Of a DNA stretch of 64,000 nt, positions 227 through 64,000 are shown piece after piece. The position numbers and the translations under genes were made by a program. Within the stretch, counting starts at the first letter, position 1; every line of letters starts with the position of its first letter. The stretch is from Trachythela sp. YZ-2020 (Eukaryota; Cnidaria; Anthozoa; Malacalcyonacea; Clavulariidae), in the NCBI GenBank assembly GCA_016169945.1, contig JADLSH010000344.1, positions 1,552,001 to 1,616,000 on the forward strand. The letters are read 5' to 3'. The notes under the pieces were generated by a model. The model saw only the letters and a program-made list of their open reading frames with translations, was not told where the DNA came from and made no database searches.

Positions 227-3070
227 ATGCCTCGCTTCGGTTTTCTTATTTTGTTTGGTCTCAATTGCATGCTTTTTCCATGTGAAGGTAGGGCTTTTAC
301 AAATCAGTATATTTTCGTATTTATTATCACTTGTGTTTTTATGTATTGCTTGTTGGCATTGCATGCTCACTCGTGAGAAATTAGAAACACTGAAAAATAG
401 AATTTCTATCTCTGCACCATAATGTAACATCCTCTATATACTTTAAATCCTCTAGGAAGAGGTTAAGTAATGAATTGAACTTGTTGTGTTTAGTTCGATT
501 TAATGCTAAAGGGGCCCAATACGTGATAATACTGTCGTGATTGTCAGGCAACCCCCTACCCCCAACCATGCGTCATATTTTGTAAATGAGTCGAAAGAAA
601 TACGTTTTGAGAACGCTGAATGATTATTTTTATATATATTTTAATATGAACTTTTTGATTATTTTTAACTTTTAAGAACAATGGTTAATTTATTGTTGTT
701 TAGGAAAAGTCAATCTACCACCTGGTGGGAATAGGTTGACCTTTTTAAGTGGATCAACTGCGAGAATAAAGTGGACATATGTTGGTGAAACTGGCATTTT
801 TGGTCGGGTTTGGAATTTTGAAAGTAGTGATGGTTCACCAGTAGAACGGCTTGCAGCAATACGGAATGATGGTGACCCTCAAATAGAAAACTGCAGCTTA
901 CCTGGGGTTACAATAGTAAAGCCAGCAACCTTGGTTTTAAATAACGTCACTGAAAGATATAATGGAACATACACGTTTATTCTTGCTGCAACTCCTGGAG
1001 GTACATCTGTCGTTGTGGTTTATATTGCAGGCAAGTTTTGATAATATAAAACATTTTATAAAATTCTGGTATATTGTCCTGACTTTCTGCCTTGTGTGAG
1101 CATGGCCCTAGCATGACAAAGTCATGGAGACAACATCTACAAATGTTTTTTATTATTTTAAGTTTCGAAATATTCTATCTGCTGCTGAGCAACTTTGCAA
1201 TGTTGTGTTCTGCAGCGAGCTTGACTTGTTTGTATAACTATCATACTTGACATATCTATCATGGAACAAAATCCGGACATTATAGGGTACAAGGTGTAGG
1301 ATGCGCAAAACAAGTATTCGATCTTATTAAACCTTTTGAATTGTTAAATTTACCCAGTCACAGACCGTTCAATTAGGAAAATGGGTGGATCCAAAATATC
1401 GTAGTCATGAAATAATTAATTAATTGCAAAACAAACCTTTACACATGCAATCACGATCGCTCAACACATTTTGCAGCAATATCGAGCTTCACTCTGACCT
1501 TACAAAATTACTTTCAAATACTTATTGTACATAGCTTCATAACATTTCAGAAAAACCAACTGCGACAGTCCATTGTTCCAGTCCTATCACAGTAAATGAA
1601 GGTGATGACTTCACATGTGTATGTCAAGGGCAAGGTAGAAACCTTCCTGCACTTATGATCGATGTTACTTGGTACAAAGATGGCGTCCAGATTGGTGAAA
1701 CAGGAAAAGAAGAACGAACATTAACTCTCAGTAATGTTGATAAAACAGCCAGTGGAACATATAAATGTGTAGCGGAAAGCCACAGTCTAACGGATGAAAA
1801 ATCAATCGAAATAATTGTTTATTGTAAGTAGAATTGATATTAACTTTATAACAAAAGAGCCGCACATTTTATTTCAAACATTTTGTGAATATATTTCAAT
1901 ATGCAGGCAAAAGCACCTTATATCAACTGAATTCGTTTAGTCACAGATATGGGCTAAAAGCTCTGAATGCTCTGTGAAAATCTATTTAGAATAAAGACAA
2001 AGACTTATCATTTAGTATTGTGAGTTTGTTTCTTTGCAGACGCAGTTCCACCTGTAGTGATAAGCCTTACGTCCACTCCAGAAAAAGCTCTACTCGGAGA
2101 ATCCGTTGTCATATCGTGTGAAGCTATAGCTGTGCCTTTACCAAGTTATATCATAATCCATAACGATACTGAGATCGTCAGTACTCAGAAGACGTATATT
2201 ATAGCAGTTTTGAAATACAGTCATGCTGGATCATATAAATGTATTGCAACAAATCTATTTGGAAATAGTTCAAAAACCTTCAGTTTGTTTGACGTAGGTA
2301 AGATCGATATGTATTTGATTTATTACTGACTTATACGGTCTATACTATAGATTATAGGAATTTCTCTGCAAGCTTTAAGAACTTTAAATTTTCATCATAT
2401 TGCATTTTTTCATGACCTTAATTTGAATTTTTATACAGATTACTATTACAGTAATATCTCTATTATTAATTTAGTTTATATATTGAGATACCGCATATCT
2501 TTTGTTTGATATATTGCATTTTAATTAGTAATACTTATTACAGAGCACAGTCCATCAAGTCCACCAACAACGAATGCCCCAAATACAAAGAGTTCTGGGA
2601 CAGGTAAAGTTATTTAACTCATGGTCGAGAAAGTATAATTTTTGTTTTCAAGTCAAATTATTATTTGCCGACACCGCGTACGTTATAAGAGTGTCCGTCT
2701 GTGTCCTCTTTTATTTTCAGAGAAAGCATGCGCAGCTTCAGAAGAACCGAATTGCAGTGGAACTGAATGGTATATCGTTGTGGTATCATTGGTGTCTGGA
2801 ATTGTCATTGGAATTCTTCTTTCCTACATTGTCTTATGTTCTGGTCGTAAATTTAGAAGTAGAAAACCTCAATCAAACCCTGAACCGCCAACATCTCAAG
2901 TTGATACGACTTACCAAGAGCTAGATCTTACGAAAATGAACACTGAAGACAATTATCAATCGTTAACAGTAAATGCTGCAAGAAATGACGGTGCAAATGA
3001 CGATGACTCTACTTATACTGAGTTGAACACAGCCAGAGATGTTGACAACAACTATCAATCTTTAACTTGA
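227..3070 (+). CDS. Gene A: three-Ig-domain type I receptor with ITAM-like tail
   Basis: Spliced model, six exons: 227-287, 704-1030, 1551-1823, 2040-2297, 2544-2603, 2721-3070 (1329 nt, 442 residues). Every junction is phase 1 and the frame closes without correction. Residues 1-20 are a signal peptide (MPRFGFLILFG...). Residues 21-129 form a V-like Ig domain with the Trp core (IKW) and the NGTY strand but Phe where the second Cys should be. Residues 130-220 form an Ig domain with four Cys, the WYK motif and SGTYKC. Residues 221-306 form an I-set-like domain (VISC...GSYKC). Residues 307-326 are a Ser/Pro/Thr stalk. The membrane helix is about 343-366, followed by basic RKFRSRK. The tail carries YQEL (Y391), YQSL (Y405), YTEL (Y425) and YQSL (Y438). 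Exon 2 ends at a GC donor. The expected role is cell-surface recognition with tyrosine-kinase signalling, inferred from domains only. Confidence 0.85.
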
Positions 3071-3414
3071 ACCTGGAATATATAAAAGGTTAAAGACTAT
3101 GCTAACCATAGTCAATAGAATAGAAGATGTTATTGACATCAGTGTATTTCATCGAGTTATGAAACTCGTATTGCACTGCATTGCATTGACATTACTACTG
3201 CAATTTTACTTTACCTGATCTTGGCTTTTTAAACAACTTTATTAAGTGAATTTTGATGTACGTAATTTAGTCGATGGTTTCTAAAAACTCTCAATTTCCA
3301 TATTAACAACCTCAATTTTAATACAAACGTAATCCTAATTCTAACTCTAATCCTAACCTTAATACTATAACCCTAATCCTAACCACAACCCTAATCCTAA
3401 CCCTTAATCCTAAT
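3071..3414. other. 3' flank of gene A with telomere-like repeats
   Basis: The first 130 bases match the region after the stop codon of gene B (18170-18210 and 19489-19525), so they are probably 3' untranslated sequence. From about 3310 the sequence becomes a degenerate run of CCTAAT/CCTAAC units, the reverse complement of TTAGG(G)-like repeats. No gene is visible. Confidence 0.5.
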
Positions 3415-6563: not shown

Positions 6564-9500
6564 ATGCCTGGCTTTGGTTTTCTTATTTTGTTTGGTATCA
6601 ATTGCATGCTGTTTCCATGTGAAGGTAGGGCTTTTACAAATCAGTATATTTTCGTATTTATTATCACTTGTTTTTTTATGTATCGCTTGTTGGCATTGCA
6701 TGCTCACTCGTGAGAAATTAGAAACACTGAAAAATAGAATTTCTATCTCGGCACCATAATGTAATAATCCTCTATACACCTTAAATCCTCCAGGCAGGGG
6801 TTAAGTAATGAATTGAACTTGTTGTGTTTAGTTAGATTTAATGCTAAAGGCAGCCCAATTAATGTGATTGGATCAACCCCCTACCCCCAACCATCACATT
6901 TGTAAATGAGTCGAAAGAAATACGTTTTGAGAATGCTGAATGATTATTTTTAAAAATTACAGTATTTATAAACTATTTGATTATTTTTAACTTTTAAGAA
7001 CAATGGTTAATTTATTGTTGTTTAGGAAAGGTCATTCTACCACCTGGTGGGAATAGGTTGACCTTTTTAATTGGATCAACTGCAAGAATAAAGTGGACAT
7101 ATGTTGGTGCAACTGACATTTTTTCTCGGTTTTGGACTTTTGAAAGTAGTGATGGTTCAACAACAGAACAACTTGCAGGAATAATATTAGATGGTGACTC
7201 TCAAATACGAAACAGCAGCTTACCTAGGGTTTCAATAGTAAAGCCAGCAACCTTGGTTTTAAATAACGTTAATGAAAGATATAATGGAATATACAAATTT
7301 CAACTTGGAGCAACTGGTGGAGGTACATCTGTCGTTGTGGTTTATATTGCAGGCAAGTTTTGAAAATGTAAAACTTTTTTTAATTCTGGTATGTTGTCCT
7401 GACTTTCTGCCTTGTGTGAGCATGGCCCTGGCATGGCTAAGTCGTGGAGACAACATTTAAGAATATGTTTTATTATTTTAATTTTCAAAATATTCAATCT
7501 GCTGAGCAACTTTGCAATGTTGTGTTCTGCAGCGGGCTTGACTAATTAACTGGATTTCCAAAAAATTTTGTTTGTATAACTATCATACTTATTGCTCATT
7601 CCGTGGTATTATTAAACATGGTCAAGGCCGGCGAGACGGGGGGGAGGGGGCAGGGGGGGGGGGAATTACCCGGGGCCCGGGCTGTTCAGAGGGGCCCGGA
7701 AAAGTTGGGTAAAGTCCCGGTCAAACGAGGATGAGAGTTGATGAGAGTCAATGACAGTTGCAACTCTCACTCGCGTTTGACCACCAACTCTCATCGACTC
7801 TCATGCACTCTTATCAACTTTGAGCTGGTTCAAATTTTGATGAGAGTTGATGAGAGTTTTGCTCGTTTGACGGGTCATGAGAGTTGCATAACTCTAACTA
7901 TAATCAGACTAGTGTTTTGGCCTTTCTATAAGCATTAGATTAACAAAGTAACACGTTATTACTTTGTAGCAAGAAAAGCTAAGAAGGAAATATATCACTT
8001 TGTTTACAAAAATTTTAGAGTTATTCTCAGGGCTCCGTTTCGTGCGCTAAATTATTTCTGTCGCGAATCTCGTGCAACTCTTGTTCTCGTTTGACCGGGG
8101 CATGAGAGTTGAACAAACTCTCGTGCAAACTCTCACTTGCCAACTCTCGTCAACTCTCATCCTCGTTTGACCGGGGCTTAAGGATGTTCGCGTCACATGT
8201 AAAGCTTTATGAGCGCCTATTTATTTAATATATTATACATTTCTGAAATGAATGGCATAATAGAACCATAACTGCATGTCAGCCAAACACCAACTTTGTA
8301 AGTGTGGAGAAAGTGCATTGTCTGGAATAACAATAAAAATGGTTATGATTTTTCTTCAGAACTCGTCTCAGAATGCGTCAAATGCTGTTCTAGAGACCCT
8401 AGAAATTCAAAATTTCTCCGGGGGAGAATGCCACTGAATCCCCTAGCATTCTCGCACCATTGGGGGTCGTATTCCGATTCCGAATCTATGTTTGTTTTTC
8501 CCGTCCAAAGTCAAAACCCTGGCTACGCTACTGGACTGGGTCCTTGACTGGCCCTCGCCGGCTTTGCATGAACATGGTCAAAAATGCGGATATTAGGGTA
8601 CAAAGTATAGGGTTGCGTGAAGCAAATATTAGTGTTGAAGTTTTTGAATTGTTATATTTACACAGACTGTTAATCCGAAGTAACATAATCATGAAAGAAT
8701 TCATTCAATTTCAAAACAAACTTTAACACACGTTGTTCTATAATACATACAAGGTAACCGCTTGCTTACGAACGTGACACATCACGACAAAAATAGATTT
8801 GAAAAATGATTTGGTTTTTTGATAACCAGACAATATTTTTGTTAACAACAACTCATTGCACGCCAGGGGCTGGTTGTAGAAAAAAGTAGTTAAAGTTAAC
8901 TACAGTATACAGGTAGTTAGTTCAAAAGTAAACCAATCAGAATCACATATTTTAGAGATAACCACTATTTTACTGCAAAACGGGTAGTTAAAAGGTAGTT
9001 AAGACTTTTATACAACCGTCCCTGAGCACTTAATTCCAGGGATTCCCATTGTGACCAATATGCCTTCGTAACTAAGTCTAAGAAGACAGAACACTTCCTT
9101 CTAAGACTAAGACTAAGACGACAGAACACTTCCTTCTAAGACGACAGAACACTTCCTTCTAAGGGCCTGTTTACATGAAGCTACCCTACAACTAGGGTTG
9201 CCCTTCCAAGAGGGTAAAATGATAGCGAGTGTTTACATGAGGTAGGGCCGTCCAACCGACAGGGTTATCTTGCCTCGAGAATAATGTCATCAAGATAAAC
9301 CAGGCACGCGTTCCATGTTAAACCAACCAACACCAATTCCATCAACTTTTCGAAGGTGGTCGGATCATTGCACAGACCGAAGGGCATGACCACGAATTGC
9401 CACAAATCACTACAAGTAGTGAAAACAGTTTTCGCTTTGTCCTCATCGGCTCATCTTGTAACTGAACCTACCAAGCACCAATATCCGCTTTCAAGATCGC

Positions 9501-12500: not shown

Positions 12501-15500
12501 AAATAGTAAACTTTCAAACCCAAGAACAGTAAAGTGTGGAGTACCGCAGGGATCGATTCTTGGCCCGCTTCTATTCTTAATATATATTAATGATTTGCCT
12601 AATTGTCTCCAGTTTACAACTACTCGATTATTTGCTGATGACACGAATATAACAGCAAGTGGTAAATCTATTGAGGAAGTGGAGCGGACCCTGAATCTTG
12701 ATCTCCTTAATGTCAAGGGGTGGCTTTCAGCAAATAAACTCTGTCTGAATGTTGTCAAAACTGAATACCTTTTGATCGGCTCTCCCTATAATATTAAAAA
12801 CTTGAGTTCAGAACCCAATGTTTTCGTTGGAGATGAGCCGATAAAAAGAGTTCGAGTAACAAAAGCTCTTGGAGTTAAACTGGACGAAAATTTAGCATGG
12901 AACAATCATATTGATCATATATCGAGTAAAATATCTGCCGGTATTAGCGCCTTAAAAAGAATTAAAGAATACACGGATCAAGACACCTTGAAATCTGTCT
13001 ACTATGCGCTTGTCCAACCTCATTTTGATTATTGTTGTGAAGTCTGGGACTCGATTAATACTACTCTTTCAAATCGACTACAGAAGCTTCATAATAGAAG
13101 TGCCAGAATTATAATGAATTGTAAAAATGAGCATGGTCAATCAAGTCTGGCCCTTGGTCTTCTTGGATGGAAAACCCTGGAGGAACAGAGGGCTCAGATT
13201 ACAGCCAGGCTCATGTATAAGGTTTTGCACAATATGGCACCGATTAAACTAAATGATATTTTTAATATGTCAAATACAGTCCACCATCATAGTTTACGAG
13301 GATCAGATTCTACTCTCTTCCTTCCGCGTCCGAAAAGTGAATATCTTAAAAAAAGTGTTAGTTTTAGAGGACCAAAAATATGGAATTCTTTGTCTGAACA
13401 AGCTAGAAATAGCGAATCTTTGTCCATATTTAATAGCAACATCTCTAATGCCAATGCCAGCCTGATTAATAAATAATTGATAATTATACTTATAAGTAAT
13501 ATAATTGATTTTATATATAGTTTGTGTGTACTTTTTTTTATTCATTTGTAAATATTTGTAGTTTTAAATCACGTCCCACTTGGAAATCAATCAATTAGTT
13601 GAAGTGGCTAACGTGTTAAAATAAAGTTTTACCTACCTACCTAAGTAATGAAAACGCATACCGTAAATGCTCGTTTTAGCGCCGCGGCGCTTATTAAATT
13701 TTTCTGATCCTGAGTGCGGCGCTTAATCGGGAGCGGCGCTTAACCGGGAGCGGCGCTTATTAAATAATTTTAGACCAAAGGTTCACCACCCACAAAAATT
13801 TTTATTGCCTAAATAGTGCGATTATTTGTGCATCCTATCAAGTTAACGCCGCGCTGGCCGATTGCGGTAAACGTCAAGCTTAAACTCTATATTACCCCGA
13901 TTAAGCGCCGCACTATAGTTAGACAGGTGCGGCGTTTAATCGGGAGCGGCGCTTATTAAATTATTTTAATCCTAGGTGCGGCGCTTAACCGGGAGCGGCG
14001 CTAATACGAGCATTTACGGTAAGTGCATGAGTACTGTCTAAGCTAGTTAAATTTAAATGAACATTTACAGTATAATTAACCTCAATACTTCTCTCCGTAG
14101 CTGCATTTATTTACACTCTTTAGTTTTTATCAAATATTGAGCTTCATTATATTAACCCTACAAAACGATTTTCAAACACTTACTGCACATGGCTTTATTA
14201 CATTTCAGTTGCGCCAAATGTGACATTCAATTGTTCCAGTACCACCACGCTAAATGAAAGTAATGGCTTTAGTTGTGTATGTAGAGGTGAAGGTGGAAAC
14301 CCCCCTGCAAACGTAACTTGGTATAAAGATGACGTCCAGATTGATAAAACAGGAAAGGAAGAACAAACATTGACTCTCCCTGATGTTGATGAAACAGACA
14401 GTGGAACTTACACATGTGTAGCCCAAAGCCACATCAATGCAATGGATAAAAAGTCAATTAAAGTAATAGTTCATTGTAAGTATAATTGAATGATTGATAC
14501 TAAAAAGTCGTTCAAGTCAAATATTATACAGTATTTTCGCCCCTAGTTACAGAATTTTTGAATTTAGAAGCAAAAAATTGATATACTGCCTATAGACTAT
14601 AACCTTCCTTAAAGGGATATGGCAATAAAAATTTAGTTTATCTCATTTGAAAGAACTTTTAAAATCATACATAAATCTCCCTTACCGATTTTTCGAATCT
14701 TTCTTAGTTCTTGAGATATTTTGACAGAAATAATCATAAATCAGCGAGCTGTCCGCCATCTTGGATTTTTGTGGATGCATGTTAATTAACGTCACAAGCA
14801 GGGTCACGCAAGATCTTACCCAGAAAGCCAATGGTTATTATGAGCCCAAAATTATACTTCGGTCACTATTTCAAATAACAAAATGACTGACAACTTTTTA
14901 AACATCTACTAATTGTTACTTGGTCACCTAGGAGTAGTTTTATATGGCTAACCCTGCTTGTGACGTCACTAAAACCACCGTTAATGAGATCAAAAAATAA
15001 TCCAAGATGGCGGACAGCTCATTGTTTTAAAATTCGAAATATCTAAAAAACTAAGCAAGATACGAAAAATCGGTAAGGGAGATTTAGATATAATTATAAA
15101 AGTTCTTTCAAATGAGATAAACTAAATTTCTATTGCCATATCCCTTTAAATACATGCATACATGGATGGCGTACGACCCTGTATAACTGGCTATCATAGA
15201 TTAAAGGTAGATATAGCTGACAATTCAGACGAAATATTTTGGCCAAATATCTCAGCCTTCGGCTTCGCCTGATAACACTTACCTTGACCTTGATAATTCC
15301 GGATATCACAAAAACCCCATCCAATAATTGTTAATTATTCACAAACGAAAGAAATTATTTGCCTATTTTCATCAGTAACGACAAAGAGGTTTTGTTTCTT
15401 CACAGTTAAACCTAAGAATACAACCATTACGTTTACACCAGAAAAAGCTGTAGTTAATGGCTCAGTTACCATAACGTGTGAATCTAATGGTCTTCCTGAA

Positions 15501-18169
15501 CCAAGTTATACCATAACCCATAATGGTACCCAGATCACTACCAGCAAGACGTATATCATAAATGATGTGCAGTACAGTGACAATGGAACATATAAATGCA
15601 TTGCAAGGAATAAACTTGGAAGTGATTCAGCTTCCGCTAATTTAATCGTCATAGGTAAGATTAGATTTTTAGACGCATTTTCTTCGCCGATTCTATCACT
15701 GGGAAAACACATTTGGGAGGAACATGAAAAGGGAGACCTTGCAGTATTTACACGGGGGCGAGCTGTGTAATACATGCATAAATTTATTTAGTAACGCGTC
15801 CATGCTCCGTTTACATGCAGTTTTTGTTTCTCCATAGGAACCTAATTACAGGCTTTATAAGCCTATACACGAAGTACTTGCCCTCCATTGCTATGATTTG
15901 AGGAAGAATACAGGGTTTTAGACTAATATTACCATGCATGGTGCAATATATATTAACTGTTTTGGGAGATTCTTGATTATATATGTACTATTACTGTAGT
16001 TAGTCTATATACAACCTGATATTTTAATGACGTTACTAATTGATATATCCTCTTGATTAGGAACTGTTTAAGCGACCGGTCATTAATAATGGGAGGGGGA
16101 GGGGCGGTGGGTGTCTGGGTGAGAAAACCCAAAGGATACGCTAATATTGGATAATAAATAAAAGAATGCGCTAGATGGTAATAAATAAAACGTGCTAAAT
16201 GGTTCTAAATGGTAATATAATGAGGAAGCCGCTGAAAATCGGAGCGCGGGCGGAGGAAAGAAGGAAAGAGGGAGGGATTCGCCGCCCGCGGTTATCATAC
16301 TCGATGTTCAATTACGCTCTAGCGCTTCTGAATCATAAAAAATTAAATAAATAGCCTCTGCGGAGGAGAGAGGCCCGGTATGAAGCCACTTGGAGTAGCA
16401 TCATCTAAAATGAAAAAATATGTTTAATTTGTTTCTTCACAGTTCCACCTGCGAACACAACCATTAAGGCCCGATCAAACGAGACCGCAAGTCATCGCAA
16501 GTTTTTACTTGCGCTTGCTTGTGGCTCGTTTGACCACCAACTTGCGATGACTTGCGATGACTTGCGTTAGCTTGCGAATGATTTGAACTGGTTCAAACTT
16601 CATCGCAAGTTTTTATAAACTTGCGAGCACTTGCGACACGTTTGAACACCAAGCGCAAGTTCAAGCAAGTTTTTCGTGACCAGTTGCCATGGTAACATAA
16701 AGCTAGGCTGTCCCTAGTCCTCTGTGCTCGCGCTCTATTTATCTCTGTGATTATTAAAAAAGCGGGAAACGTCGAAGTCGAATACCGTTCGTTTCAAATG
16801 GCTTCAAAAAACACCGAAAAACTGGAAAAAGTCGACGAAAATGTTTCCAATAAGAGTGAGAACATGAAAGAAAAGAACACGAGCTAAATCGCCCTAAATT
16901 TCTTGCGTATCGTTTGCATCGCAAGTCAACGCAAGTCAAAACAAATTTACTTGTGATGACTTGCGTTCTCGTTTGATCGGGCCTTAATTACGTTTACACC
17001 AGAACCTGCTGTAGTTGGTAGATTAGTATAATATACATGAAGGCGAGCAGTAATACTGAATATATTAGAATGTATTTAATGAAGCGCATGCTCCGTGTAC
17101 TGTATCATGTACAGTATGGATATTTTTGTCCGGAGACTGGGGTTAGGTCGTTTTGGATTGAATTGGGGACACGCTTGCATTGCGCACAGGTACACTCTAC
17201 ACATGAATTATTTGCCTTCCATTGCTATGATTTGACACAGAATACAGGATATCAAGACTTATAACTATAGTACCGTGTAATATATTAGCTGTTTGGTAAT
17301 ATCACTTCATGCTTATTAGTGTGGCTAATCTATATACAACCTGATATTTTGATAACTGTAGTTAAATAATTGATATAGTCTCTAGATTAGGACCTGTTTA
17401 ATAATTTTTTTGCAAGAAAATTTTGTTCAATTATAATCATTCTCTTTTCAATTGGTAAAATAGAACCAGAACCAACAACGCCACCAATAAAACCATCAAC
17501 AACACGATCAGTATCAAACTCAAGCATTACGATCCCTACGTCTACGCCTACGCCTACGAAAGGTAATGGATCAGGTAACTAATGTAAAGAGACAAACTGT
17601 ATATCATAGATTTATCAGTCCTATTAATAACAACTTTCTCACATGATCAATAATAAATAGTACTTATGGTGACTCAACCTGGGTGGTATAGATATAGACC
17701 TGGGTGATATGGATTATTACGAACATAGTTCCTGGAAATAAAGAATTGAAACAAATGGAATTTCTGCCATTGTTAATTGTTTAGCAAATTGGTAAGCCCA
17801 TATCTGTGTCCTTTTTAATTTTCAGAGAAAGCAGCTTCAGAAGAGTCGAATTGCAGTGGAACTGAATGGTATATCGTTGTGGTATCATTGGTGTCTGGAA
17901 TTATCATTGGAATTCTTCTTTCCTACATTGTCTTATGTTCTCGTCGTAAATTTAGAAGTAGAAAACCTCAATCAAACCCTGAACCGCCAACATCTCAAGT
18001 TGATACAACATATCAAGAACTAGATCTTACGAAAATGAACACAGAAGACAATTATCAATCATTGAGAGTGAATGCTGCAAGAAATGACGGTGTAAATGAC
18101 GATGACTCTACTTATACTGAGTTGAACAAAACCAGAGATGTAGAGAACAACTATCAATCTTTAACTTGA
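6564..18169 (+). CDS. Gene B: three-Ig-domain receptor with ITAM-like tail, TE-swollen introns
   Basis: Exons: 6564-6624 (signal peptide, MPGFGFLILFG...), 7026-7352 (V-like domain, 327 nt, GC donor), 14209-14475 (Ig domain 2, WYKDD...SGTYTC), 15406-15654 (Ig domain 3, VTITC...GTYKC), 17464-17574 (Thr/Pro stalk), 17826-18169 (membrane helix and tail). The total is 1359 nt, 452 residues, all phase 1. The tail has the same four YxxL motifs as gene A. Intron 2 is 6.9 kb and consists mostly of inserted transposons; intron 3 holds a TTAA element. A second copy of exon 4 downstream (16443-17019) is dead and must be skipped. The stalk exon has two in-frame donors 12 nt apart (after 17562 or 17574). 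The V-like domain has no cysteine at all. The function is inferred as a surface recognition receptor. Confidence 0.8.
7625..8570. mobile_element. Inserted element with 10-bp target duplication in intron 2 of B
   Basis: AACATGGTCA is duplicated at 7615-7624 and 8571-8580. The ends carry short inverted GCCGGCGAG / CTCGCCGGC motifs. Gene A's intron reads through the equivalent place without it. It contains a G-run tract (7638-7665) and a nested inverted-repeat element (7714-8177). The small frames at 8302-8726 have no recognisable product. Confidence 0.6.
7714..8177. mobile_element. Nested short inverted-repeat element built of GAGAGTTGATGA words
   Basis: The inverted ends contain CCCGGTCAAACGAGGATGAG followed by GAGAGTTGATGAGAGT. 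The interior repeats the same word in both orientations and includes CGTTTGACCACCAACT and a CTGGTTCAAA motif. TTAA follows the right end; the left flank is GTAA, so the TTAA target is probable. It is related in layout to 16468-16983 but uses a different internal word. Confidence 0.65.
8864..9024. mobile_element. Short CAGGG-ended inverted-repeat element
   Basis: The ends CAGGGGCTGGTTGTA and, reverse-complemented, CAGGGACGGTTGTA are inverted. The interior repeats GTAGTTAA/TTAACTAC words. The ends look hAT-like, but a clean 8-bp duplication is not visible. Confidence 0.45.
9161..9277. repeat. Truncated short-element end and small tandem repeat
   Basis: GACAGAACACTTCCTTCTAAG-type units (about 25 bp) repeat about three times at 9086-9163. 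They are followed by a GGGCCTGTTTACATGAAG end resembling the AGGC(C)-type elements elsewhere. A second copy of TGTTTACATGA at 9231 suggests a rearranged or truncated copy. Confidence 0.35.
9278..9605 (-). mobile_element. Ty3/gypsy pol fragment, part 1 (gene B intron 2)
   Basis: This is the antisense reverse-transcriptase fragment also seen at 31660-32230 and 61060-61300. It is split here by the LINE at 9611-10975 and continues at 10981-11170. It is a broken relic. Confidence 0.6.
9611..10975 (+). pseudogene. Decayed, 5' truncated LINE reverse transcriptase
   Basis: Frames carry FLDLSKAFDTVNHSILF, a GVPQGSILG motif, FADDTN and the thumb region (SDWFSVNKLSLN...). They are split by at least two frameshifts (near 9855 and 10225), then continue to GPKFF near 10669. 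ATAAT flanks it at 9606-9610 and 10976-10980, a plausible target duplication. Removing it restores the gypsy relic seen uninterrupted in gene C. It lacks the endonuclease and most of the fingers, and cannot encode an active enzyme. Confidence 0.75.
10981..11170 (-). mobile_element. Ty3/gypsy pol fragment, part 2 (gene B intron 2)
   Basis: It matches 31995-32165 and 61380-61560 (reverse-strand reading around [13 protein letters not shown]). It continues the relic interrupted by the LINE. Short and non-functional. Confidence 0.55.
11279..13642 (+). mobile_element. 5' truncated non-LTR retrotransposon with exact empty site
   Basis: Gene D carries the unoccupied site: GACAAGTAATGAAAACGCAT is continuous at 62681-62700, whereas here GACAAG and TAATGAAAACG are 2.4 kb apart. 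A 3-base AAG duplication flanks it (11276-11278, 13643-13645). The 3' end is a short ACCT repeat tail rather than poly(A). The 5' end is truncated between the endonuclease and RT regions. Confidence 0.85.
11281..13476 (+). CDS. LINE reverse transcriptase, open but 5' truncated
   Basis: The frame is open from the left junction of the element; the first ATG is at 11425 (683 residues), but upstream codons still read as the endonuclease-RT linker (NFKHFDRTAFQDDL). RT landmarks in order: the linker helix region (VPWLTREIRSKM), KIPAKVLK, a NYRPISILPIISKVFE block, FRRFHSTM, FLDLKKAFDTVDH, GVPQGSILGPLLFLIYINDL, the catalytic FADD, and the thumb with LGVKLDENLAW. The C-terminus has the usual FRGPKIWNSL close. 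The endonuclease domain is missing, so the copy was dead on arrival although its frame is intact, which implies a recent insertion. It probably belongs to the CR1/L2/Jockey side of the non-LTR tree; the clade is not certain. Confidence 0.85.
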   Translation, partial: NVTTKTNTTKETSFRNFKHFDRTAFQDDLFRQPWYTIDTLSNVDDKWNLWKKLFLNILDKHAPIMSRRVRNKGNVPWLTREIRSKMINRDHFKKQAISTHSNVDWEQYKSYRNSVNIAMRKAKVEYYRNRIGNQKNNPKQAWKIVNDILGRGRKDNTINEIKVDQDTISSPTKISECFNDYFVNAGLTIASSIGGCNSNFENYINKVDNTSFTFQTVSHSKFFKLFNELVVSKATGVDKIPAKVLKLAVPVITNSITKIFNCSIETGEFPLDWKIARVTPLHKKGPKNLLDNYRPISILPIISKVFERILYEQFYEYLTTNNLLSKHQFGFRRFHSTMSTLLDCTNEWYINMDRGLYNLVVFLDLKKAFDTVDHALLLAKLQLYGITDTAFNLFKSYFTDRLQVCYVNSKLSNPRTVKCGVPQGSILGPLLFLIYINDLPNCLQFTTTRLFADDTNITASGKSIEEVERTLNLDLLNVKGWLSANKLCLNVVKTEYLLIGSPYNIKNLSSEPNVFVGDEPIKRVRVTKALGVKLDENLAWNNHIDHISSKISAGISALKRIKEYTDQDTLKSVYYALVQPHFDYCCEVWDSINTTLSNRLQKLHNRSARIIMNCKNEHGQSSLALGLLGWKTLEEQRAQITARLMYKVLHNMAPIKLNDIFNMSNTVHHHSLRGSDSTLFLPRPKSEYLKKSVSFRGPKIWNSLSEQARNSESLSIFNSNISNANASLINK
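13661..14019. mobile_element. TA-target inverted-repeat element built of GCGGCGCTTA words
   Basis: The ends CCGTAAATGCTCG / CGAGCATTTACGG are perfect inverted repeats flanked by TA (13659-13660, 14020-14021). The paralogous site in gene D reads ACGCATAAGTGCATGAG without interruption (62696-62712), proving the borders. The interior repeats GCGGCGCTTA and GGGAGCGGCGCTTA in both orientations. The TA target suggests a Tc1/mariner-type mobiliser. Confidence 0.85.
14613..15145. mobile_element. TTAA-target inverted-repeat element in intron 3 of B
   Basis: The ends AGGGATATGGCAATA / TATTGCCATATCCCT sit between TTAA copies at 14609-14612 and 15146-15149. Gene D has the empty site with a single TTAA (around 63279-63284). 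The inverted similarity extends over 50 bp from each end and includes GAGCTGTCCGCCATCTTGGA near the centre. No coding capacity. Confidence 0.85.
16071..16442. other. Insertion between the two exon-4 copies of gene B
   Basis: It lies between the duplicated halves of intron 4. It begins near GCGACCGGTCATTAATAATG, resembling an end of the 28089-29950 element (GAGCGGTCATTAT), and has G-rich tracts. No second end is recognised, so it is probably a rearranged copy. The last 20 bases restore an intron end with a splice acceptor (TTCTTCACAG). Confidence 0.35.
16443..17019 (+). pseudogene. Dead second copy of Ig-domain-3 exon in gene B
   Basis: After an intact acceptor the codons read PPANTT, matching the start of exon 4 (PKNTTI). 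A 516-bp transposon then interrupts it. After the transposon, TTTACACCAGAACCTGCTG continues the exon (TFTPE.A) but homology stops near 17019, before the cysteine-coding part. The downstream intron (17200-17400) matches the intron after the live exon (15880-16070). It is a remnant of a tandem exon duplication that would have given a four-domain receptor. Confidence 0.8.
16468..16983. mobile_element. TTAA-target inverted-repeat element built of CGCAAGTCAT words
   Basis: The ends GGCCCGATCAAACGAGA / TCTCGTTTGATCGGGCC are followed by CGCAAGTCATCGCAAGT-like arms, giving about 35 bp of inverted similarity. TTAA flanks both sides (16464-16467, 16984-16987). The interior repeats ACTTGCGATG in both directions and keeps CGTTTGACCACCAACT and GAACTGGTTCAAA, which also occur in 7714-8177. 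Inserted into the dead exon. Confidence 0.85.
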
Positions 18170-36100: not shown

Positions 36101-38783
36101 TCCACTACTTTGAATACAAGTGATGACTTCACATGTGTATGTAAAGGACAAGATGGAAACCCTCCTGCAAAAGTTACTTGGTATAAAGGAAACAAACCAA
36201 TTGCTGGCCCAGGACCAGAAGAACAAACATTAATTCTCAATAATATTGATAAAGACGCCGATGGAACATACATATGTGTAGCGAAAAGCCATGAACAAGC
36301 TCAGAATGAAACATCAATTGAATTAATTGTAAATTGTAAGTACATGATTGATCAGGCGCCACAGTATTTGAGCCATATGTAAAGAGTATACTATAGATGA
36401 AATCACCCTGTTTGTTATTGCACCTTATCCACTGTAGTTTAACTACACATGTTAAAGTCATAATGGTCAAATTGTTCTTTATTGCTATGCAGTGGCCAGA
36501 ATATTTCATCTGTCTCATTAACCTTGTATTTCTAATCTTGTGAAGCGGGTAAGAAGGTCACACTGCTTGCATGCATGCATGTGATGTATATTCTGATCAA
36601 ACACTACACGGTCGTACATACATGCAACTGGTGGATGATACATTGTTTAAACCGTCTTTTATGAAGGTTTACGCATTACGATTTGTCCGGCATATTTCTG
36701 GTTTTTCTAAAATTCTGTTGATGACAATTGATTGTTATGAGGTTTCACATGACGATTATAGCCAATATTTCAATATATCGTTAATGTGAACTTGAAAACG
36801 GCCTGATAAATCGCATAGTGTAAATGTACCTTTACCTAAAGACAAAGTAAGCCATGACCCCATGGGTGATAAAAAGACTGGGTAGGTAAACTTGATGGCG
36901 TTACCATAGCAACCTAGTAAAATATTGTGATAATATTGTGCAAACAACCATATTTCGTGTACTTAAAATAGCAGCTAAACGTCCTGAAAGTAAGTCAAAG
37001 CCACAGACCGAGATTATATCCTTGTACTAACATTAGAATTCTAATTTCTTCACAGTTCCACCTGAAGATACAATTTTGAATTTTGTTTATAAAGATGATA
37101 ATTCACTTAACATAACATGTAAAGCTGATGCTCGTCCTCCACCAACATATAAAATATTCTTCAACGGAACGTTGCTCATAAGTGGCAGTCTGTATACCAT
37201 ACCTGAAGTGAAAAAAAGTAATGTTGGAAATTATACGTGTGTTGCCGAGAATATACTTGGAAGTAAATCTTCATTGTCCCGATATTTACCCCTTAAAAGT
37301 AAGATTACATTTTACGATTGTCTTAATTTTTTTAAAGCATGATTTGAATGTTTTCAGTAAATTAGAATTCTGTATTCTATATAATCCTATATTCTAGAAA
37401 TAATTGCCATTCTACTTGATATGCCAACAAACCTATCCTATATGCATGATATTTCTTCGTCAAAGACAAGTGAATGACAATGTTTCAGTACGTAAATTAG
37501 GCTCCTGTACACTTCCCAATATACCTCATGAGTTGCCTGCCTAACGTGTAAAAATTGTTACTATTTATGGTTTTGTTTGATGATAATAATCGTTCGATAC
37601 TAATGCAGGCGAGCGAAGTTTAGTCAAAGTTATGATAGCCCATTTTTATTATAAAGTATCGTACATTTTTGCATTTTATTGTTGTACAATATAGATCATG
37701 AGCTATGTTCTTTTCTAGGATTGTTAGGGTATTTTTGTTTTTATCTTTGTTCGTTTGGTCGAGAAAAGCACAAAATTTACGGGCTTGTTATATCTAAATA
37801 TATTGTATTTATGGAAATCAATGCTCTGCCTCCGCATTTATGCAGTTATGTGTGAATTCATTTACCATGCACGCAAAGGCCACTGTTGGCTAGCAACCGA
37901 TCTAGCTGGAGATCTATGCTGTGTGGTGGGATACGACATGGCCATCAACATATTGACAATAAGATGAGAGAAAGATGTAAATGATAGATATATCTTACTT
38001 TGGTTGTATAGTTTTTTTTGACACATTTTAATAGAATATTCGACGTAATAGTTCAAACACGAGTAGGAGGACTTCCTCCGATTTCTAAACACCGAGAAGA
38101 GTTGAATATACGAGGCCAAGTCGAGTATATTTTAACGAATTTCGAGGTGCTTAGAAATCGGAAGAAGTCCTCCATACGAGTGTTTGAACTTACTTCTCAA
38201 ACGAACGTGTATTTTGCGAGAAAACCGACGTGAAAGTTCATTTAATTTATGTAATTTCTTCCTCTGATTTCAAACCATGATTTCCACGCTTATGATTCTC
38301 TTTGTTTTTGGTTCATGAATTATTAATGAGTTTGAGAAATACAAATAATGTGAGCACGAAAAAGCAAATTTTACCACAAAAATTGCTATGGTGCAACATT
38401 AAAAAAGTTGTGCTTAGAGATGGTTCCAAATTCCAAAATTGATGTACTATGCTATGTGAGTGTAATTCTCATCCGTTGCAGCTAAATGCATTGGTTAACA
38501 AGAGACATTGGCAGATTGTTTTGTTAACCCATTAGTGTGCGAGACCCAAGTAAAATCGTCTTGCCTTGGTAGAATGCATTCGGGCGTATTTCGACTTAAT
38601 GGGTTAAGGAGGAAATGCTTAATATATTTACCGTTATTTCTTTTAGCTGTATCCGAAGATGACGATGACGATGATGATGGTGGTTTAAGTGGTGGTGCCA
38701 TTGCGGGAATAGTTATTGGTGTGTTGGTGGTGGTGGTCCTGATTGTTGTTGTTGTTGTGGTATATTGCTATAAATCAAAATAA
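30199..38783 (+). CDS. Gene C: three-Ig-domain receptor with acidic stalk and almost no tail
   Basis: Exons: 30199-30259 (signal peptide, [14 protein letters not shown]...), 30985-31311 (V-like domain, GC donor), 36069-36335 (Ig domain 2, VTWYKGN...DGTYIC), 37056-37298 (Ig domain 3, LNITC...GNYTCVAEN), 38647-38783 (stalk, helix, stop). The total is 1035 nt, 344 residues, all phase 1. The last exon reads [12 protein letters not shown], a Gly/Ala/Val-rich helix (about residues 314-338) and the tail YCYKSK before TAA. There is no YxxL motif and no charged residue inside the helix to recruit a signalling adaptor. It could be a decoy, an adhesive ligand or a receptor relying on partners. Intron 2 (4.8 kb) holds an antisense gypsy relic and a satellite. 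An extra stalk exon in intron 4 cannot be excluded. Confidence 0.8.
31660..33340 (-). pseudogene. Ty3/gypsy retrotransposon relic (gag end, protease, RT start)
   Basis: Antisense to gene C, in intron 2. Reading from 33340 down: a gag-like stretch, a Cys-rich region near 33125-33155 with a disturbed frame, an aspartic protease with the DTGSS active site (near 32890), the conserved IIALDFL stretch leading into the polymerase (near 32670), and a reverse-transcriptase start with [17 protein letters not shown] (near 31990). Stops and frame changes separate these pieces and the polymerase palm, RNase H and integrase are absent. Shorter copies lie at the same place in genes B and D, so it predates those duplications. 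Confidence 0.75.
34030..34520. repeat. 21-bp minisatellite, about 24 copies
   Basis: The unit is GAATGCCCGGGAGTCGGAAAA, with a T/C variant at position 4. Because 21 is divisible by 3, it stays open in two frames as PGSRKRM and NARESEK repeats; these are not regarded as genes. The T/C variants follow a TTC-TTC-type pattern in the middle, suggesting growth by three-unit steps. The GC-rich unit (CCCGGG in each) contrasts with the AT-rich intron around it. Confidence 0.9.
34521..34870. repeat. Duplicated flanking module of the minisatellite
   Basis: A module with ACTAATGCTTTGACAAATTT and GATCAGATCTGATCGAATTA occurs at 34525-34617 and 34768-34856. The preceding TTGAATGTTCTTCTAATATT / AACCTGTTGACC segment occurs at 33975-34030 and 34665-34715. 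A larger unit was therefore duplicated, with the satellite expanded in only one copy. Confidence 0.65.
35291..35420 (+). repeat. tRNA-derived SINE-like copy
   Basis: GTAGCTCAGTGGTCAGAGCA is a good A box/D arm and GCAGGTTCGAGACC a good B box/T arm at normal spacing. The acceptor ends (GAACTAT / TAGAGTT) pair poorly, so this is a SINE head or tRNA pseudogene rather than a working tRNA. The tail CGCAGCCGTTCCCGGTAAGG resembles the copy near 28870. Confidence 0.6.
38051..38189. repeat. Hairpin in intron 4 of gene C
   Basis: Arms of about 48 bases (38051-38098 and 38141-38189) pair with few mismatches, starting GTTCAAACACGAGTAGGAGG. The loop contains a second short palindrome. It could be a folded-back short transposon. 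Confidence 0.65.
38523..38608. mobile_element. Short TTAACCCATTA element before the last exon of gene C
   Basis: It begins TTAACCCATTAG and ends CTTAATGGGTTAA, an inverted relative of the units at 25916-26328. It ends 38 bases upstream of the last exon, so it supplies part of the region where the branch point would lie. Confidence 0.55.
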
Positions 38784-52144: not shown

Positions 52145-52199
52145 GTTGCACACAAATTGTGAATTCGCTATTTGTTAACGAATAATCATCATCCAAGTA

Positions 52200-56758: not shown

Positions 56759-56770
56759 AAGTGAACACCT

Positions 56771-58730: not shown

Positions 58731-58910
58731 TCTATAAATGTTTCTTCGTTTTGTCTTGTCTTGTGAGTTGCGTTGTGGTCAAGGGCCGCTGTAATTGGCG
58801 TGAGCTGTAGCGTATACCCTGCCTTGTGATTGTATATTATCTTTGTTGTTATTGTAAACTGTAAGTTTGTGTGAAATTGGCAAAGCGTAATAAATAAATA
58901 AATAAACAGT

Positions 58911-59529: not shown

Positions 59530-62500
59530 ATGCCTGGCTTTGGTTTCCTTATTCTATTTGGTCTCAGTTCCATATTCTTTCCATGTGAAGGTAGGGCTTT
59601 TACAAATTCTATTTTTCTATTTATTAACTTGTGTTTCTATATATTGCTGTTGAAAGCCAATTAGTGCATATTAAAAACACTAATGTACCTTAAATCCTCT
59701 AGGCAGCGTTAAGTAATTACTTGAGCTTTGTTGTGTTTGGTTAGATTTAATGCTAAAGACAGCCCAACATGTTGTACCCATCTGGAGAATGAAAGGGACT
59801 AGAAAATAAGTAATATGTTAAACACAATGATTTATAGTAATGGGTTACAAACACATGCTGCTTTTTGCCAATTTTACCAGTATCCCATGTGACAATTGTG
59901 ACTTTCTTTCCCCCACACCACTCCCTGTTGGCTGTTGCAGTATTTATCAATAGATTGATAATTATTGGCAGTTTTTAAATATCTGTTATTTGATCATTAT
60001 TATTAAAAATATCGATATACCGAAAACTGTTTGGCATTTTCCATATTGATCATGCACAACTGCGATAAAAGTAGATAAATTTTCTTAATTCAACATATTA
60101 GGTTGAAATGCTATGATTTTGGTTGATAAACCTATTTCGTTTTTGATACGCCTTGAAATTATACCATATGCATACTATATGAACAACATAAGGGTGTGCC
60201 TTATGTTGAAAAGTCAACATATTGTCCAATTAGTTTGGCAAAAAAGTAGGTGACCAATTTTTGGAATTAAAAATATAGATATCAGAATTTCTATAACAGC
60301 CCACCTCCTTGATATCCCGTTTTCCAAAAACTATTTATAAACTATTTGATTATTTTTAACTTTTAAGAACAATGGTTAATTTATTGTTGTTTAGGAAAGG
60401 TCAATCTACCACCTGGTGGGAATAGGTTGGCATTTTTAAATGGATCAACTGCAAGAATAAAGTGGACATATGTTGGTGCAACTGACATTTTTACTCGGCT
60501 TTGGACTTTTGAAAGTAGTGACGGTTCAACAGCAGAACAACTTGCAAGAATATCATTAGATGGTGTCCCTGACATACGAAACAGCAGCTTACCTGGGGTT
60601 TCAATAGAAAAGCCAGCAACCTTGGTTTTAAATAACGTTAATGAAAGATATAATGGAACATACACGTTTAATCTTGCAGCAACTCGTGGAGGTACATCTG
60701 TCGTTGTGGTTTATATTGCAGGCAAGTTTTAATAATGTAAAACTTCAGATTTTGTTAAAATTCTGGTATAATATTGTCTTGACTTTCAGGCTTGCATCAG
60801 CATGGCCTGGCATGGCATGGCCAAGTCATGGACAAAACATCTACAAATAGTAGAAAATGCGGGCATTAGGGTACAATTGGAGCAAATATTTTTAAAGTTT
60901 TTGAATTGTTAAATGTACACAGATCATGGATCCAAAAGAACGTAATCATGAAAGAATAAATTTAATTCAGTTCAAAACAAACCTCAGCATGTGCATGTAG
61001 TTAAGCTAAGATACAACACTTCCTTCAAATGCTATACTGCGGCGTAGAACATTTCGGCATGGACAATCCTGTCATCAAGATAAACCAGACATACGTTCCA
61101 TGGTAATCAAATCAACACCAATTCCCTCAGCGTTTCGAAGGTGGTCCGATCATTGCACAAACCGAAGGGCATGACCACGAATTGCCACAAACCACTATTA
61201 GTGAAAACAGTTTTCGCTTTGTCCTCATTTTTTAACTGAACCTACCAAGCACCAATATCCGCTTTCAACATCGCTCGATCGCTCTTCGAGCCCCCCCCCC
61301 CCCAGTCCCCATGCCCCCCCAACGGCTTCCCACACCTGTAATACACCACCTACTTGTTACGTCCCTAAAAAAGGCCCTGATCAACGCAGAATCTACTGCT
61401 ACCATCCTTTCTCTTTACGAGCACAACTGGAGCTGCCCAAGGACTCGCGATGGTTTAATAACACCTTGCTTACCCATGCCCTTGATCAACTTTGAACTTT
61501 GAAGCTTCTTCCATTTTAGAGATTGGCAATCGTCTTGCTGGCTGTCGAATCGGCCGTGTGTCTTCAGTATCAATCTTCTGCTTAGAACAGAAGATGCTGA
61601 AGCGTTTTTTTTTCTGGTCATCATTTAGGTTATCGGAACTGCGTTCGTACAGGTCACACACATGACTTAGTACTTCCGAGTCTTGGTACAATAACACCTT
61701 GCTTACTCATGCCCGTGATCAACTTTGAAGCTTCTTTCATTTTAAAGATTGGCAGTCATCTTGTTGGCTGTCGAATCGGCCGTGTATCTGAGTATCTCCT
61801 GTATCAATCTTCTGATTTATCTCGAACGTTCTTCCCAATTCGTGAGATGCCTTTGAGAAATCATCAGAAAAATCACATAGAAGATTTTGAAGAGTTTCTT
61901 TTTGGTTATCATTTAGGTTAACGGAACTGCGCTCATACAGGTCACACACATGACTTGGTTCTTCCGAGTCTTGGCTCGTAACAGAGCATGTAGGCTCGTT
62001 TCCGACAAGAACGCTTTCGACTACTGTACTGCGTATTGTTTGGCTACAGTCGGAGACATTTGCGACTCTGACAGGAAAACTTGTCGACCAATGTCTTCTC
62101 TATTGTCGTCATTTGGCAGTATCCAGTGCATGTGTTGTCAGTGAAACGCTTCCTCGTCACTATATTCTTCGTCTATCTTTCCTGGAAGCAACGCCTCACT
62201 TCTTTCAGGATCCTATACGTTTCTACTAAAACGAGTTCACTGGGGTTACCAGCCACTTTACCAGTCACAGACAGGTATTCTTTGGAAAAGCTGTTTCCGA
62301 AAACGCCCAGAATGCAGTTCTGGAGCTTCAAAAATGCAAAAGATCCCATAACTTAATCGTTCACCAGAACCCCCTCTTAAATTTTACAACATTGTTTATA
62401 AACTATGTAAACAGCACTATTCAAGTAATTTTGTCGCAATAACTTTCAAATTCAAGTAAAACTTTTTGACAGCCCATAACTTGTAATTGCAGATGCTTTG

Positions 62501-64000
62501 CAGTGGCAACGTCCGCCTTGGTCTTAACAGAATGTTTTGAACAATGTTTATTGTTGACAGCATTATATTTTACAATTATCAAATCTTCATTTTCAATGAC
62601 TTACAGTACACATTTTCAATTGAAAATCCATAAAAAATCCCTTTAATGATGTCAAAAACACTGCAAACTGAAATGTTTGCTGACAAGTAATGAAAACGCA
62701 TAAGTGCATGAGTACTGTCTAGTTAAATTTAAATGAACATTTACAGCATAATTAACCTCAATACTTCTCTCCGTAGCTGCATTTATTTACTCTCTTTAGT
62801 TTTTATCAAATATTGAGCTTCATTATATTAACCCTACAAAATGATTTTCAAACACTTACTGTACATGGCTTTATTACATTTCAGTTGCGCCAAATGTGAC
62901 ATTCAATTGTTCCAGTACCACCACGCTAAATGAAGGTAATGACTTCAGTTGTGTAGGCAGAGGTGAAGGTGGCAACCCCCCTGCAGACGTAACTTGGTAT
63001 AAAGATGATGTCCAGATTGGTAAAACAGGAAAGGAAGAACAAACATTGACTCTCCCTGATATTGATGAAACAGACAGTGGAACTTACACATGTGTAGCCC
63101 AAAGCCACATCAATGCAACGGATAAAAAATCAATTAAAGTAATAGTTCATTGTAAGTATGATTGATACTAAAAAGTCGTGCAAGTCAAACATTATACAGT
63201 ATTTTCGCCCCAATTTACAGAACGTTTGAATTTGGAAGCAAAAAATTTGATCTACTGCCTATAGAATATAACCTTTTTTAAATACATGCATACATGGATG
63301 GAGTGCGACCCTGTATAGCTGGCTATCAAAGATTGGAGGTAGATATAGCTGACAATTCAGATGAAATATTTTGGCATGCAATTATGTTAACATTGACCAT
63401 GCTGGTGATATTGAAATATGAATGTTAAAAGATATACTTATATCTATTTAGGATCTAACGGGAGGCAGTTGCCATAAACCTTTAGCAGTGTGTTCTATAT
63501 GCATGATGAGATGCTAAAAATTCAGAAAATGTCCGCCACGTTATTTACTGTTTAGGTCGGTTCGTACTTCGATAATATTTTCCCTCGTTGCCAGGAGCAT
63601 TGCTAGACGTTTGGTCTCAATCCGCTTGTAAGACCACAGGAAAATATATTTCCAGACATCCAGTACGAACCTACCAGCCTGTAAATATACTTTGAGTGTA
63701 CTGTATATATTTTTTACCAATAATCAATATTATTCACAAACGAAAGCAATTATTTGCCTATTTTCATTAGTAACAAAGAGGTTTTGTTTCTTCACAGTTA
63801 AACCTAAGAATACAACCATTACGTTTACACCAGAAAAAGCTGTCGTTAACGGCACAGTTAACATAACTTGTGAATCTAATGGTCTTCCTGAACCAAGTTA
63901 TATCATAACCCATAATGGTACCGAGATCACTTCCAACAAGACGTATACCATAAATGATGTACAGTACAGTCACAATGGAACATATAAATGCATTGCAACG
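59530..64000 (+). CDS. Gene D: Ig-domain receptor, 3' end outside the window
   Basis: Exons: 59530-59590 (signal peptide, MPGFGFLILFGLSS...), 60395-60721 (V-like domain, GC donor), 62885-63151 (Ig domain 2), and 63798 onward (Ig domain 3: KPKNTTITFTPEKAVV...NITC...GTYKCIAT), cut by the window edge. All junctions are phase 1. The V-like domain is identical at nucleotide level to gene C's; domains 2 and 3 are close to gene B's. In domain 2 one of the four cysteines is Gly (SCVG instead of SCVC), leaving three. Intron 2 has the gypsy relic but not the LINE or the TA element of gene B. The stalk, helix and tail are not visible, so its signalling class is unknown. Confidence 0.8.
61060..62250 (-). 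pseudogene. Ty3/gypsy relic in gene D intron 2, rearranged
   Basis: It is homologous to 31660-32490 in gene C. A C-run (61291-61304) and unrelated sequence replace part of the RT start, and the NCYLY-side segment is duplicated: 61380-61690 and 61690-61980 both carry the GACTGGCAATCGTC-type / GGCTGTCGAATCGGCCGTGT block. Non-functional. Confidence 0.65.

Follow-up and report, generated by a model that had tools for sequence, protein, structure and literature searches.

The 64,000-nucleotide stretch analysed here (the window; positions 1552001-1616000 of the forward strand of contig JADLSH010000344.1, hereafter C72, in the 578 Mb, 396-contig assembly of the octocoral Trachythela sp. YZ-2020) encodes four receptor genes of the immunoglobulin superfamily (IgSF). 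We predict that these are tandem, paired-receptor-like genes that exchange exon cassettes and whose products recognise something variable at the cell surface (probability about 0.7). The evidence is strongest for a tandem exon-shuffling complex with a variable V-set first domain (D1) and conserved or alternative signalling tails. In corals, the cluster is a good candidate for a complex that tells self from non-self or serves immune recognition. The initial annotation described an array of four head-to-tail genes. All four do lie on the + strand, but reading C72 from 1442001 to the contig end at 1635418 revealed 11 head-to-tail units on one strand over ~163 kb (U1-U7, then genes 1-4), and the window holds the last four.

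In the mechanism that we propose, the products would be type I membrane receptors, with D1 as the membrane-distal V-set domain, binding ligand via its CC'C''FG face (in the usual naming of V-set faces), and with D2 and D3 as immunoglobulin (Ig) spacers. Once phosphorylated, the YxxL tyrosines of the tail would recruit SH2 signalling proteins. New receptors would arise by duplication and by gene conversion or unequal crossing-over that carries cassettes of exon size from one neighbour to another; such cassettes would stay in frame because the introns are in phase 1. The same or a similar recognition domain would end up on different tails: tandem YxxL resembling an immunoreceptor tyrosine-based activation motif (ITAM; genes 1 and 2), a tail with an inhibition motif (ITIM; gene 4), or none (gene 3).

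Gene models and relatives

Genes 1-4 were rebuilt exon by exon, as follows.

227..287, + strand: gene 1 exon 1, signal peptide, phase-1 donor GTAGGG
704..1030, + strand: gene 1 exon 2, D1 (Cys-poor V-set domain by structure prediction), GC donor
1551..1823, + strand: gene 1 exon 3, D2 (Ig; Pfam Ig_2 1.5e-11)
2040..2297, + strand: gene 1 exon 4, D3 (Ig; Pfam Ig_3 7e-11)
2544..2603, + strand: gene 1 exon 5, stalk rich in Ser/Thr/Pro, 60 nt
2721..3070, + strand: gene 1 exon 6, membrane helix, tyrosine tail and stop (pattern TYQEL-x10-NYQSL, STYTEL-x9-NYQSL)
6564..6624, + strand: gene 2 exon 1, signal peptide
7026..7352, + strand: gene 2 exon 2, D1, GC donor
14209..14475, + strand: gene 2 exon 3, D2 (Pfam Ig_3 2e-12)
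15406..15654, + strand: gene 2 exon 4, D3 (Pfam Ig_2 3e-14)
17826..18169, + strand: gene 2 last exon, helix and tyrosine tail (93% amino acid identity to gene 1)
30199..30259, + strand: gene 3 exon 1, signal peptide
30985..31311, + strand: gene 3 exon 2, D1, same as gene 4 D1, GC donor
36069..36335, + strand: gene 3 exon 3, D2 of a separate lineage (with Dendronephthya gigantea P0010, 100/97)
37056..37298, + strand: gene 3 exon 4, D3 of a separate lineage (with Paramuricea clavata P0049, 99/98)
38647..38783, + strand: gene 3 last exon, Asp7 stretch and membrane helix, TAA after ~5-6 cytoplasmic residues
59530..59590, + strand: gene 4 exon 1, signal peptide
60395..60721, + strand: gene 4 exon 2, D1, GC donor
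62885..63151, + strand: gene 4 exon 3, D2 (95.5% nucleotide identity to gene 2)
63798..64000, + strand: gene 4 exon 4, D3, runs past the window edge (249 nt when completed on the contig)

Beyond the window, the D3 exon of gene 4 is followed by an Asp6 helix exon and two tail exons, with a TGA ending at C72:1621568. All four genes have a signal peptide, a V-like first domain (V-set by fold) and two Ig domains, as first described. Exon sizes are 61 nt for the signal, 327 nt for D1 and 243-273 nt for D2 and D3. The symmetrical phase 1-1 structure originally reported holds for all complete internal exons in the window, each a multiple of 3, but not for one exon of the gene 4 tail beyond it, which is phase 1-0. 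Splice sites in the window are AG acceptors and GT donors, except for a GC donor (AG|GCAAGT) after D1 in all four genes (window 1031, 7353, 31312 and 60722). The GC donor also follows 8 of the 10 D1 exons of the contig, and 38 distinct D1 ends from other contigs comprise 20 GC, 15 GT and 3 unresolved. GC-AG introns are often splice-regulated. Candidates for a stalk exon in genes 2 and 3 were unconvincing, and the gene models work without one. The 46 proteins described below, aligned by tblastn, identified no extra family exon in the window at E 1e-3.

A search with the gene 1 protein retrieved 46 proteins, 42 of them from P. clavata, D. gigantea or Xenia, two without an organism name and two vertebrate Ig proteins; the best match (E 8e-167) aligns with 99% of gene 1 at 62% identity. 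A profile was also built from 14 family members; scoring it on the 7,997 candidates that share most words yielded 80 proteins. Rows 1-54 are octocoral or nameless records, row 55 is a ray, two P. clavata proteins follow, and the remainder are other animals, nameless records and one bacterial bin. We consider the four exon structures, as read from the sequence, to be real and not chance, because predicted proteins of P. clavata and D. gigantea carry the same domain series end to end.

The pooled searches give 90 proteins, in which we identified 35 D1 domains (E 1e-20 over nearly the full model) in 34 proteins, 32 of them octocoral and two nameless. D1-bearing relatives among the named retrieved records are all octocoral. 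Within the 90, the tail core TYQELDLxKMNxEDNYQSL and the D1 signature (I-x-W ... W ... Y-x-F) likewise occur only in octocorals and nameless records. The retrieved vertebrate proteins have no full D1 at the limited sensitivity of the search (the best match, P0045, has E 0.017 and covers the final third of the D1 model). A protein search with D1 only, over 187 candidates at E <= 10, returned its own query alone; known family members were missed, so the result does not argue for absence. The database names of family members are automatic and misleading (e.g., potassium channel subfamily T for P0021, neuronal cell adhesion molecule for P0042, High Incidence of Males for P0044).

Mosaic ancestry of the units

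The ancestry of the genes differs from exon to exon. At the nucleotide level, genes 1 and 2 resemble each other in the signal-D1 region (88.6% over 1.1 kb) and the tail (92%), genes 3 and 4 in signal-D1 (92.8% over 1.5 kb), and genes 2 and 4 in the D2 and D3 regions (93%; 95.5% for the D2 exons, 93.5% for the D3 exons). Around D1, similarity in the 1/2 and 3/4 pairs covers the exon and ~100 bp on each side, and the introns beyond are near chance. Genes 3 and 4 share an identical tract.

30799..31492, + strand: 694-bp tract in gene 3, D1 and parts of both flanking introns, identical to 60209-60902
60209..60902, + strand: partner of this tract in gene 4, identical to 30799-31492

The tract is bordered by diverged sequence on both sides and probably reflects gene conversion or very recent exchange. 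The synonymous divergence (dS) of the five gene pairs other than 2/4 is 0-0.11 in D1, 0.39-0.58 in D2 and 0.51-0.81 in D3; for genes 2/4 it is 0.04, 0.09 and 0.10.

Trees of each domain were built from the four window genes and 17 of the 34 D1-bearing proteins, and groups for tree tests were picked after the trees had been inspected. In the D1 tree, the four window genes form one clade (99/98). In the D2 tree, P0010 of D. gigantea is the partner of gene 3 (100/97), genes 2 and 4 form a pair (100/96), and gene 1 is placed with P. clavata P0001 with support of only 79/88. In the D3 tree, gene 1 joins P0001 and D. gigantea P0003 (97/96), and gene 3 joins P. clavata P0049 (99/98). A tree that keeps the four genes together is rejected by D3 (p 0.00026) and, narrowly, by D2 (p 0.048), and D1 rejects the grouping of gene 1 with P0001 (p 0.0026).

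Across the cluster, D1 falls into class I (U1, U5 and gene 1) and class II (U3 and genes 2-4). These combine with D2-D3 classes x, y and z in five of the six possible ways (I-x, I-y, II-x, II-y, II-z); U2, U4, U6 and U7 are outside one or both class sets. By the approximately unbiased test, the class II grouping is rejected in D2 (1e-8) and D3 (3e-56), and an x-class grouping in D1 (2e-4). U4 and U7 are 92-94% like gene 1 in D3 and tail and only 69-70% in D1. Assembly error seems an unlikely source of the mosaic pattern in many units. The early suggestion that these exons can be exchanged without breaking the frame is borne out by the mosaic trees, identity tracts and class combinations, and we conclude from these alignments that exon modules are exchanged between neighbours in frame.

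Domain folds and cytoplasmic tails

A Pfam scan covered ten window exons. The six D2 and D3 exons of genes 1-3 each exceed the cut-off for at least one Ig model, and the three D1 exons of these genes have no Ig family match. A search of PDB sequences with D1 gave chance matches only. The fold was settled by structure prediction, and the model of D1 is a V-set. Its fold neighbours include adhesion V-sets (P0, CAR, MPZL1, nectins) and also heterophilic receptors (TIGIT, PD-L1, TCR). Alr chains are absent among the PDB matches listed for the D1 fold, which decides nothing either way. A pair of cysteines is found in none of the 34 distinct D1s from outside the window. In the full-length model of P0003 (mean predicted local distance difference test score 71.6), D1-D3 are mostly confident, and the helix (350-376) and tail are low. 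In D2, four cysteines are invariant in 14 aligned family members, which suggests a second disulfide. The gene 4 D2 (62885-63151) reads CVG, where genes 1-3 read CVC.

Tail motifs were called as pattern matches on sequence, not as phosphorylation (pair pattern YxxPhi-x6-12-YxxPhi). The tyrosine tail first attributed to the whole family is present, with its helix, in genes 1 and 2 only within the window, and units U1-U7 carry the same type. It has YxxPhi spacings of 10 and 9 and one ITIM-pattern match (STYTEL). Gene 3 stops ~5-6 residues past the helix. The gene 4 tail is of a different type, with four YxxPhi sites, one of which is an ITIM match (SEYASI). The helix exon of gene 3 resembles that of gene 4, the last codon before the shared donor being TAA in the former and GGA in the latter. 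Tail exons of the P0010 type gave only chance-level matches 3' of gene 3 within the window, and are present after gene 4. We infer which tail would activate and which inhibit.

The core TYQ[EAG]L is present in 45 of the 90 retrieved proteins, with two YxxPhi pairs in 36 of these, one in 5, none in 1, and four or five in 3. In the last group (P0021, P0029 and P0060), tandem copies of the unit TYQxLDLxKMNxEDNYQSL bring the number of YxxL pairs to four, four and five, respectively, and by their sequence these tails appear multi-ITAM-like.

Variation, constraint and decay

Variation in D1 is concentrated on one face. In genes 1-3, 20 of 48 front positions vary versus 8 of 60 in the rest (p 0.0017). 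With the same partition, mean entropy in the 34 non-window D1s is 2.29 bits in the front and 1.57 bits in the rest (p 9e-5), and core residues are conserved. The ratio of nonsynonymous (dN) to synonymous divergence is 1.16-2.34 for distinct D1 pairs and 0.21 for the gene 1/2 tail, and the ratio of nonsynonymous to synonymous changes (N:S) differs between D1 and tail (p 0.006, 0.013). Maximum likelihood omega is 1.60 (five rows) and 1.30 (six rows) for D1, 0.35 and 0.43 for D2, 0.36 and 1.72 for D3, and 0.29 for the tail. D1 rejects the tail value of 0.289 (twice the log-likelihood difference, 2dlnL, about 40), and the tail value is distinguished from 1 over nine units (2dlnL 45.8). The D1 pattern fits diversifying selection on what may be a binding face; relaxed constraint there could also produce it.

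Several points weigh against our reading. The excess of D1 dN over dS is not significant in the two pairs tested (p 0.12, 0.32), nor is D1 omega significantly above 1 (2dlnL 2.4, 0.3), so relaxed constraint on D1 is a live alternative. One D3 group has an omega of 1.72 (not significant), N:S does not differ significantly between D1 (genes 2/3) and D2 (genes 2/4) (p 0.086), and omega can be distorted by gene conversion. The variable sites were already known when the front/rest partition was made. Textbook ITAM spacing is 6-8, which the spacings of 10 and 9 exceed, and the same tail has the ITIM match STYTEL, so the sign of the signal is unreadable from sequence. The array is partly decaying: the D1 frame is open in eight of the 11 units, D1 is divided between two frames in U3 and U4, and no D1 was found in U2.

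The units might be largely decaying duplicates in a repeat-rich region, with the mosaics a by-product of transposon-driven recombination and the D1 divergence a result of relaxed constraint. The window does contain fragments of long interspersed nuclear elements and a reverse-transcriptase frame, and the split D1s, the truncated gene 3 tail, a stop codon in two near-identical haplotype-like D1 copies (on contig C333, below) and the non-significant D1 omega are in line with this. We consider it quite improbable: the tail is constrained in nine units, most D1 frames are open, D1 core residues are conserved and D1 changes are nonrandomly placed.

Ordinary constraint would be expected of tissue adhesion or neural recognition molecules of the IgLON/NCAM kind. 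Such a role is suggested by database names (hemicentin-like, NCAM-like, contactin-like) and by the adhesion V-sets among the D1 fold neighbours. These names are automatic and differ between close relatives, and D1 omega is 1.3-1.6 versus 0.29 for the tail. Clear orthology to a conserved single-copy adhesion receptor, singled out by the initial annotation as contrary evidence, was rejected on the retrieved proteins, among which there is no single-copy orthologue; the D1 family is multicopy and, among named records, octocoral-only. This role is unlikely.

Copies elsewhere in the genome and possible ligands

Genome-wide, there are at least 67 matches to the gene 1 D1 and at least 105 to its tail exon, spread over many contigs; these counts are of exon pieces, as lower bounds, with some exons giving two rows and alleles possibly counted twice. 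A second haplotype of C72 was not seen among the D1 matches, the best identity outside C72 being 59%. A different cluster is present on contigs C290 and C333, which look like its two haplotypes but could also be recent duplicates. Nine short stretches were compared. For one D1 pair, identity is 98.0% over 1.38 of 1.75 kb, and for another it is 99.2% over 1.75 kb. A third C290 D1 is 97.0% and 96.7% identical to two C333 copies that are 99.7% alike, indicating an extra copy. Both of these (C333:190344-190688 and 201251-201595) have an in-frame TAA, which the C290 copy lacks. The D1s of the three pairs differ at 0, 2 and 8 positions, nine of the changes altering the protein (one a stop) and one silent; the second extra C333 copy has the same D1 differences as the first. 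L049/L050 was rejected as an allelic pair (247 bp at only 77%) and left out of the polymorphism count.

As a special form of the reading that we favour, the cluster could be an allorecognition complex in which D1 binds to its own allele on an adjacent colony, with the tails deciding between fusion and rejection. Homophilic binding is known for Hydractinia Alr. We regard this role as plausible, at less than even odds, because the animals are colonial and both Alr and Botryllus FcoR show the same ingredients. The variable V-set D1, with adhesion V-sets among its nearest folds, the clustered genes with ITAM/ITIM-like tails (as outlined for Alr and FcoR in PMC11067881 and PMC12065747), and the copy-number and amino acid differences between C290 and C333 are consistent with it. 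Less expected are the identity of D1 in genes 3 and 4 and its exchange among neighbours, since label genes need discriminating alleles; one of the three haplotype-like D1 pairs is also identical, and the fold neighbours include heterophilic receptors.

Nearly as likely, though still the less probable outcome, are receptors for microbes, parasites or symbionts, in which D1 would bind foreign or damage ligands and be diversified by an arms race. The many dispersed matches, the decay and turnover in the array, and the variable recognition face coupled to signalling tails would suit this role, and an oyster IgSF receptor bearing an ITAM binds bacteria (as summarised in PMC11999971). Lacking among the Pfam matches of the ten window exons are lectin, leucine-rich repeat and scavenger modules.

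Comparison with known systems

Alr domain details (V-like D1, I-set-like domains) are reportedly given by Huene et al. 2022. The window family has an architecture of the Alr type, with a V-set-like D1, Ig domains, helix and tail (the last two read from sequence). Hydractinia is a colonial cnidarian, and its Alr genes encode type I IgSF receptors in a cluster, with a V-like D1, I-set-like domains, helix and tail. The Alr D1 is atypical; the D1 of the octocoral family also lacks diagnostic V-set sequence motifs, with no Ig Pfam match in the three exons scanned and no cysteine pair in the 34 D1s from outside the window. Some Alr tails have ITAM/ITIM motifs, and there are many related pseudogenes (as outlined in PMC11067881 and PMC12065747). 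Alr genes cover one large region (PMC11067881, in outline), whereas the octocoral matches, as assembled, are on many contigs. Among the retrieved proteins, the octocoral tail core and D1 signature were found only in octocorals and nameless records, and the likeness is by description, not by Alr sequence. We do not assign the cluster to the Alr family.

Vertebrate paired receptors (KIR, LILR, Siglec, SIRP, PIR) place ligand-binding modules on ITIM, ITAM-like or truncated tails and are kept similar by gene conversion. The parallel, first drawn by the initial annotation, is upheld: both are tandem IgSF genes with near-identical ectodomain modules on different signalling tails, here D1 of genes 3/4 and D2/D3 of genes 2/4 in one cluster. 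Unlike the vertebrate receptors, the octocoral genes carry ITAM-like motifs on the tail of the receptor itself instead of on an adaptor, and have a D1 without the Ig disulfide; no full D1 is present in the retrieved vertebrate proteins. CEACAM proteins have a membrane-distal V-set without the canonical disulfide, Ig spacers, ITIM/ITAM tails and species-specific expansions. The octocoral family resembles them in these features, and some members are named CEACAM-like; the difference is again the missing full D1 match in retrieved vertebrate proteins (P0045 being the best). The Botryllus FcoR genes of the fuhc allorecognition locus encode multigene receptors with V-type and C2-type Ig domains and ITIM, hemITAM or core tyrosine tails (as described in part in PMC12065747). 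The octocoral genes share the multigene V-type Ig plus Ig design with tyrosine tails. FcoR has a sushi domain, whereas none was found in the ten window exons scanned, where the D1 exon is followed directly by the D2 exon.

More speculatively, and at well below even odds, octocorals may have a recognition complex of their own, germline-encoded and distinct from Hydractinia Alr, with gene conversion moving a single disulfide-free V-set recognition cassette among receptors whose tails are activating-like, inhibitory-like or silent. Cnidarians would then have a counterpart of vertebrate paired receptors, and octocoral histocompatibility its missing molecular basis; multi-ITAM-like tails, with up to five YxxL pairs, would act as built-in amplifiers.

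Cnidarian allorecognition genes have been described from hydroids, and anthozoan biology without genes, according to the available part of PMC7563517. Titles and abstract openings of open-licence literature on octocoral or anthozoan allorecognition and immunoreceptor tyrosine motifs, with subscription journals mostly outside this set, describe no such family. Related findings may be coming, because a 2026 Podocoryna preprint mentions, in its accessible text, unpublished homology of allorecognition genes across cnidarians (PMC13119343). For work on octocoral self/non-self recognition, the cluster offers specific loci, a variable domain that is well delimited and a prediction on the D1 face and haplotype; it is also a case of a paired-receptor-like design with exon-cassette exchange in a cnidarian.

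Other features of the window

A reverse-transcriptase frame in intron 2 of gene 2 (11275-13476) runs for 733 codons without a stop (RVT_1 2e-32), and other reverse-transcriptase/endonuclease pieces were identified at 9599-9874, 53738-54649 and 56957-57763. Minisatellites are present in intron 2 of gene 3 (34030-34521, 21-bp unit, 23.4 copies) and between genes 2 and 3 (24595-24885, 7-bp unit, 42 copies).

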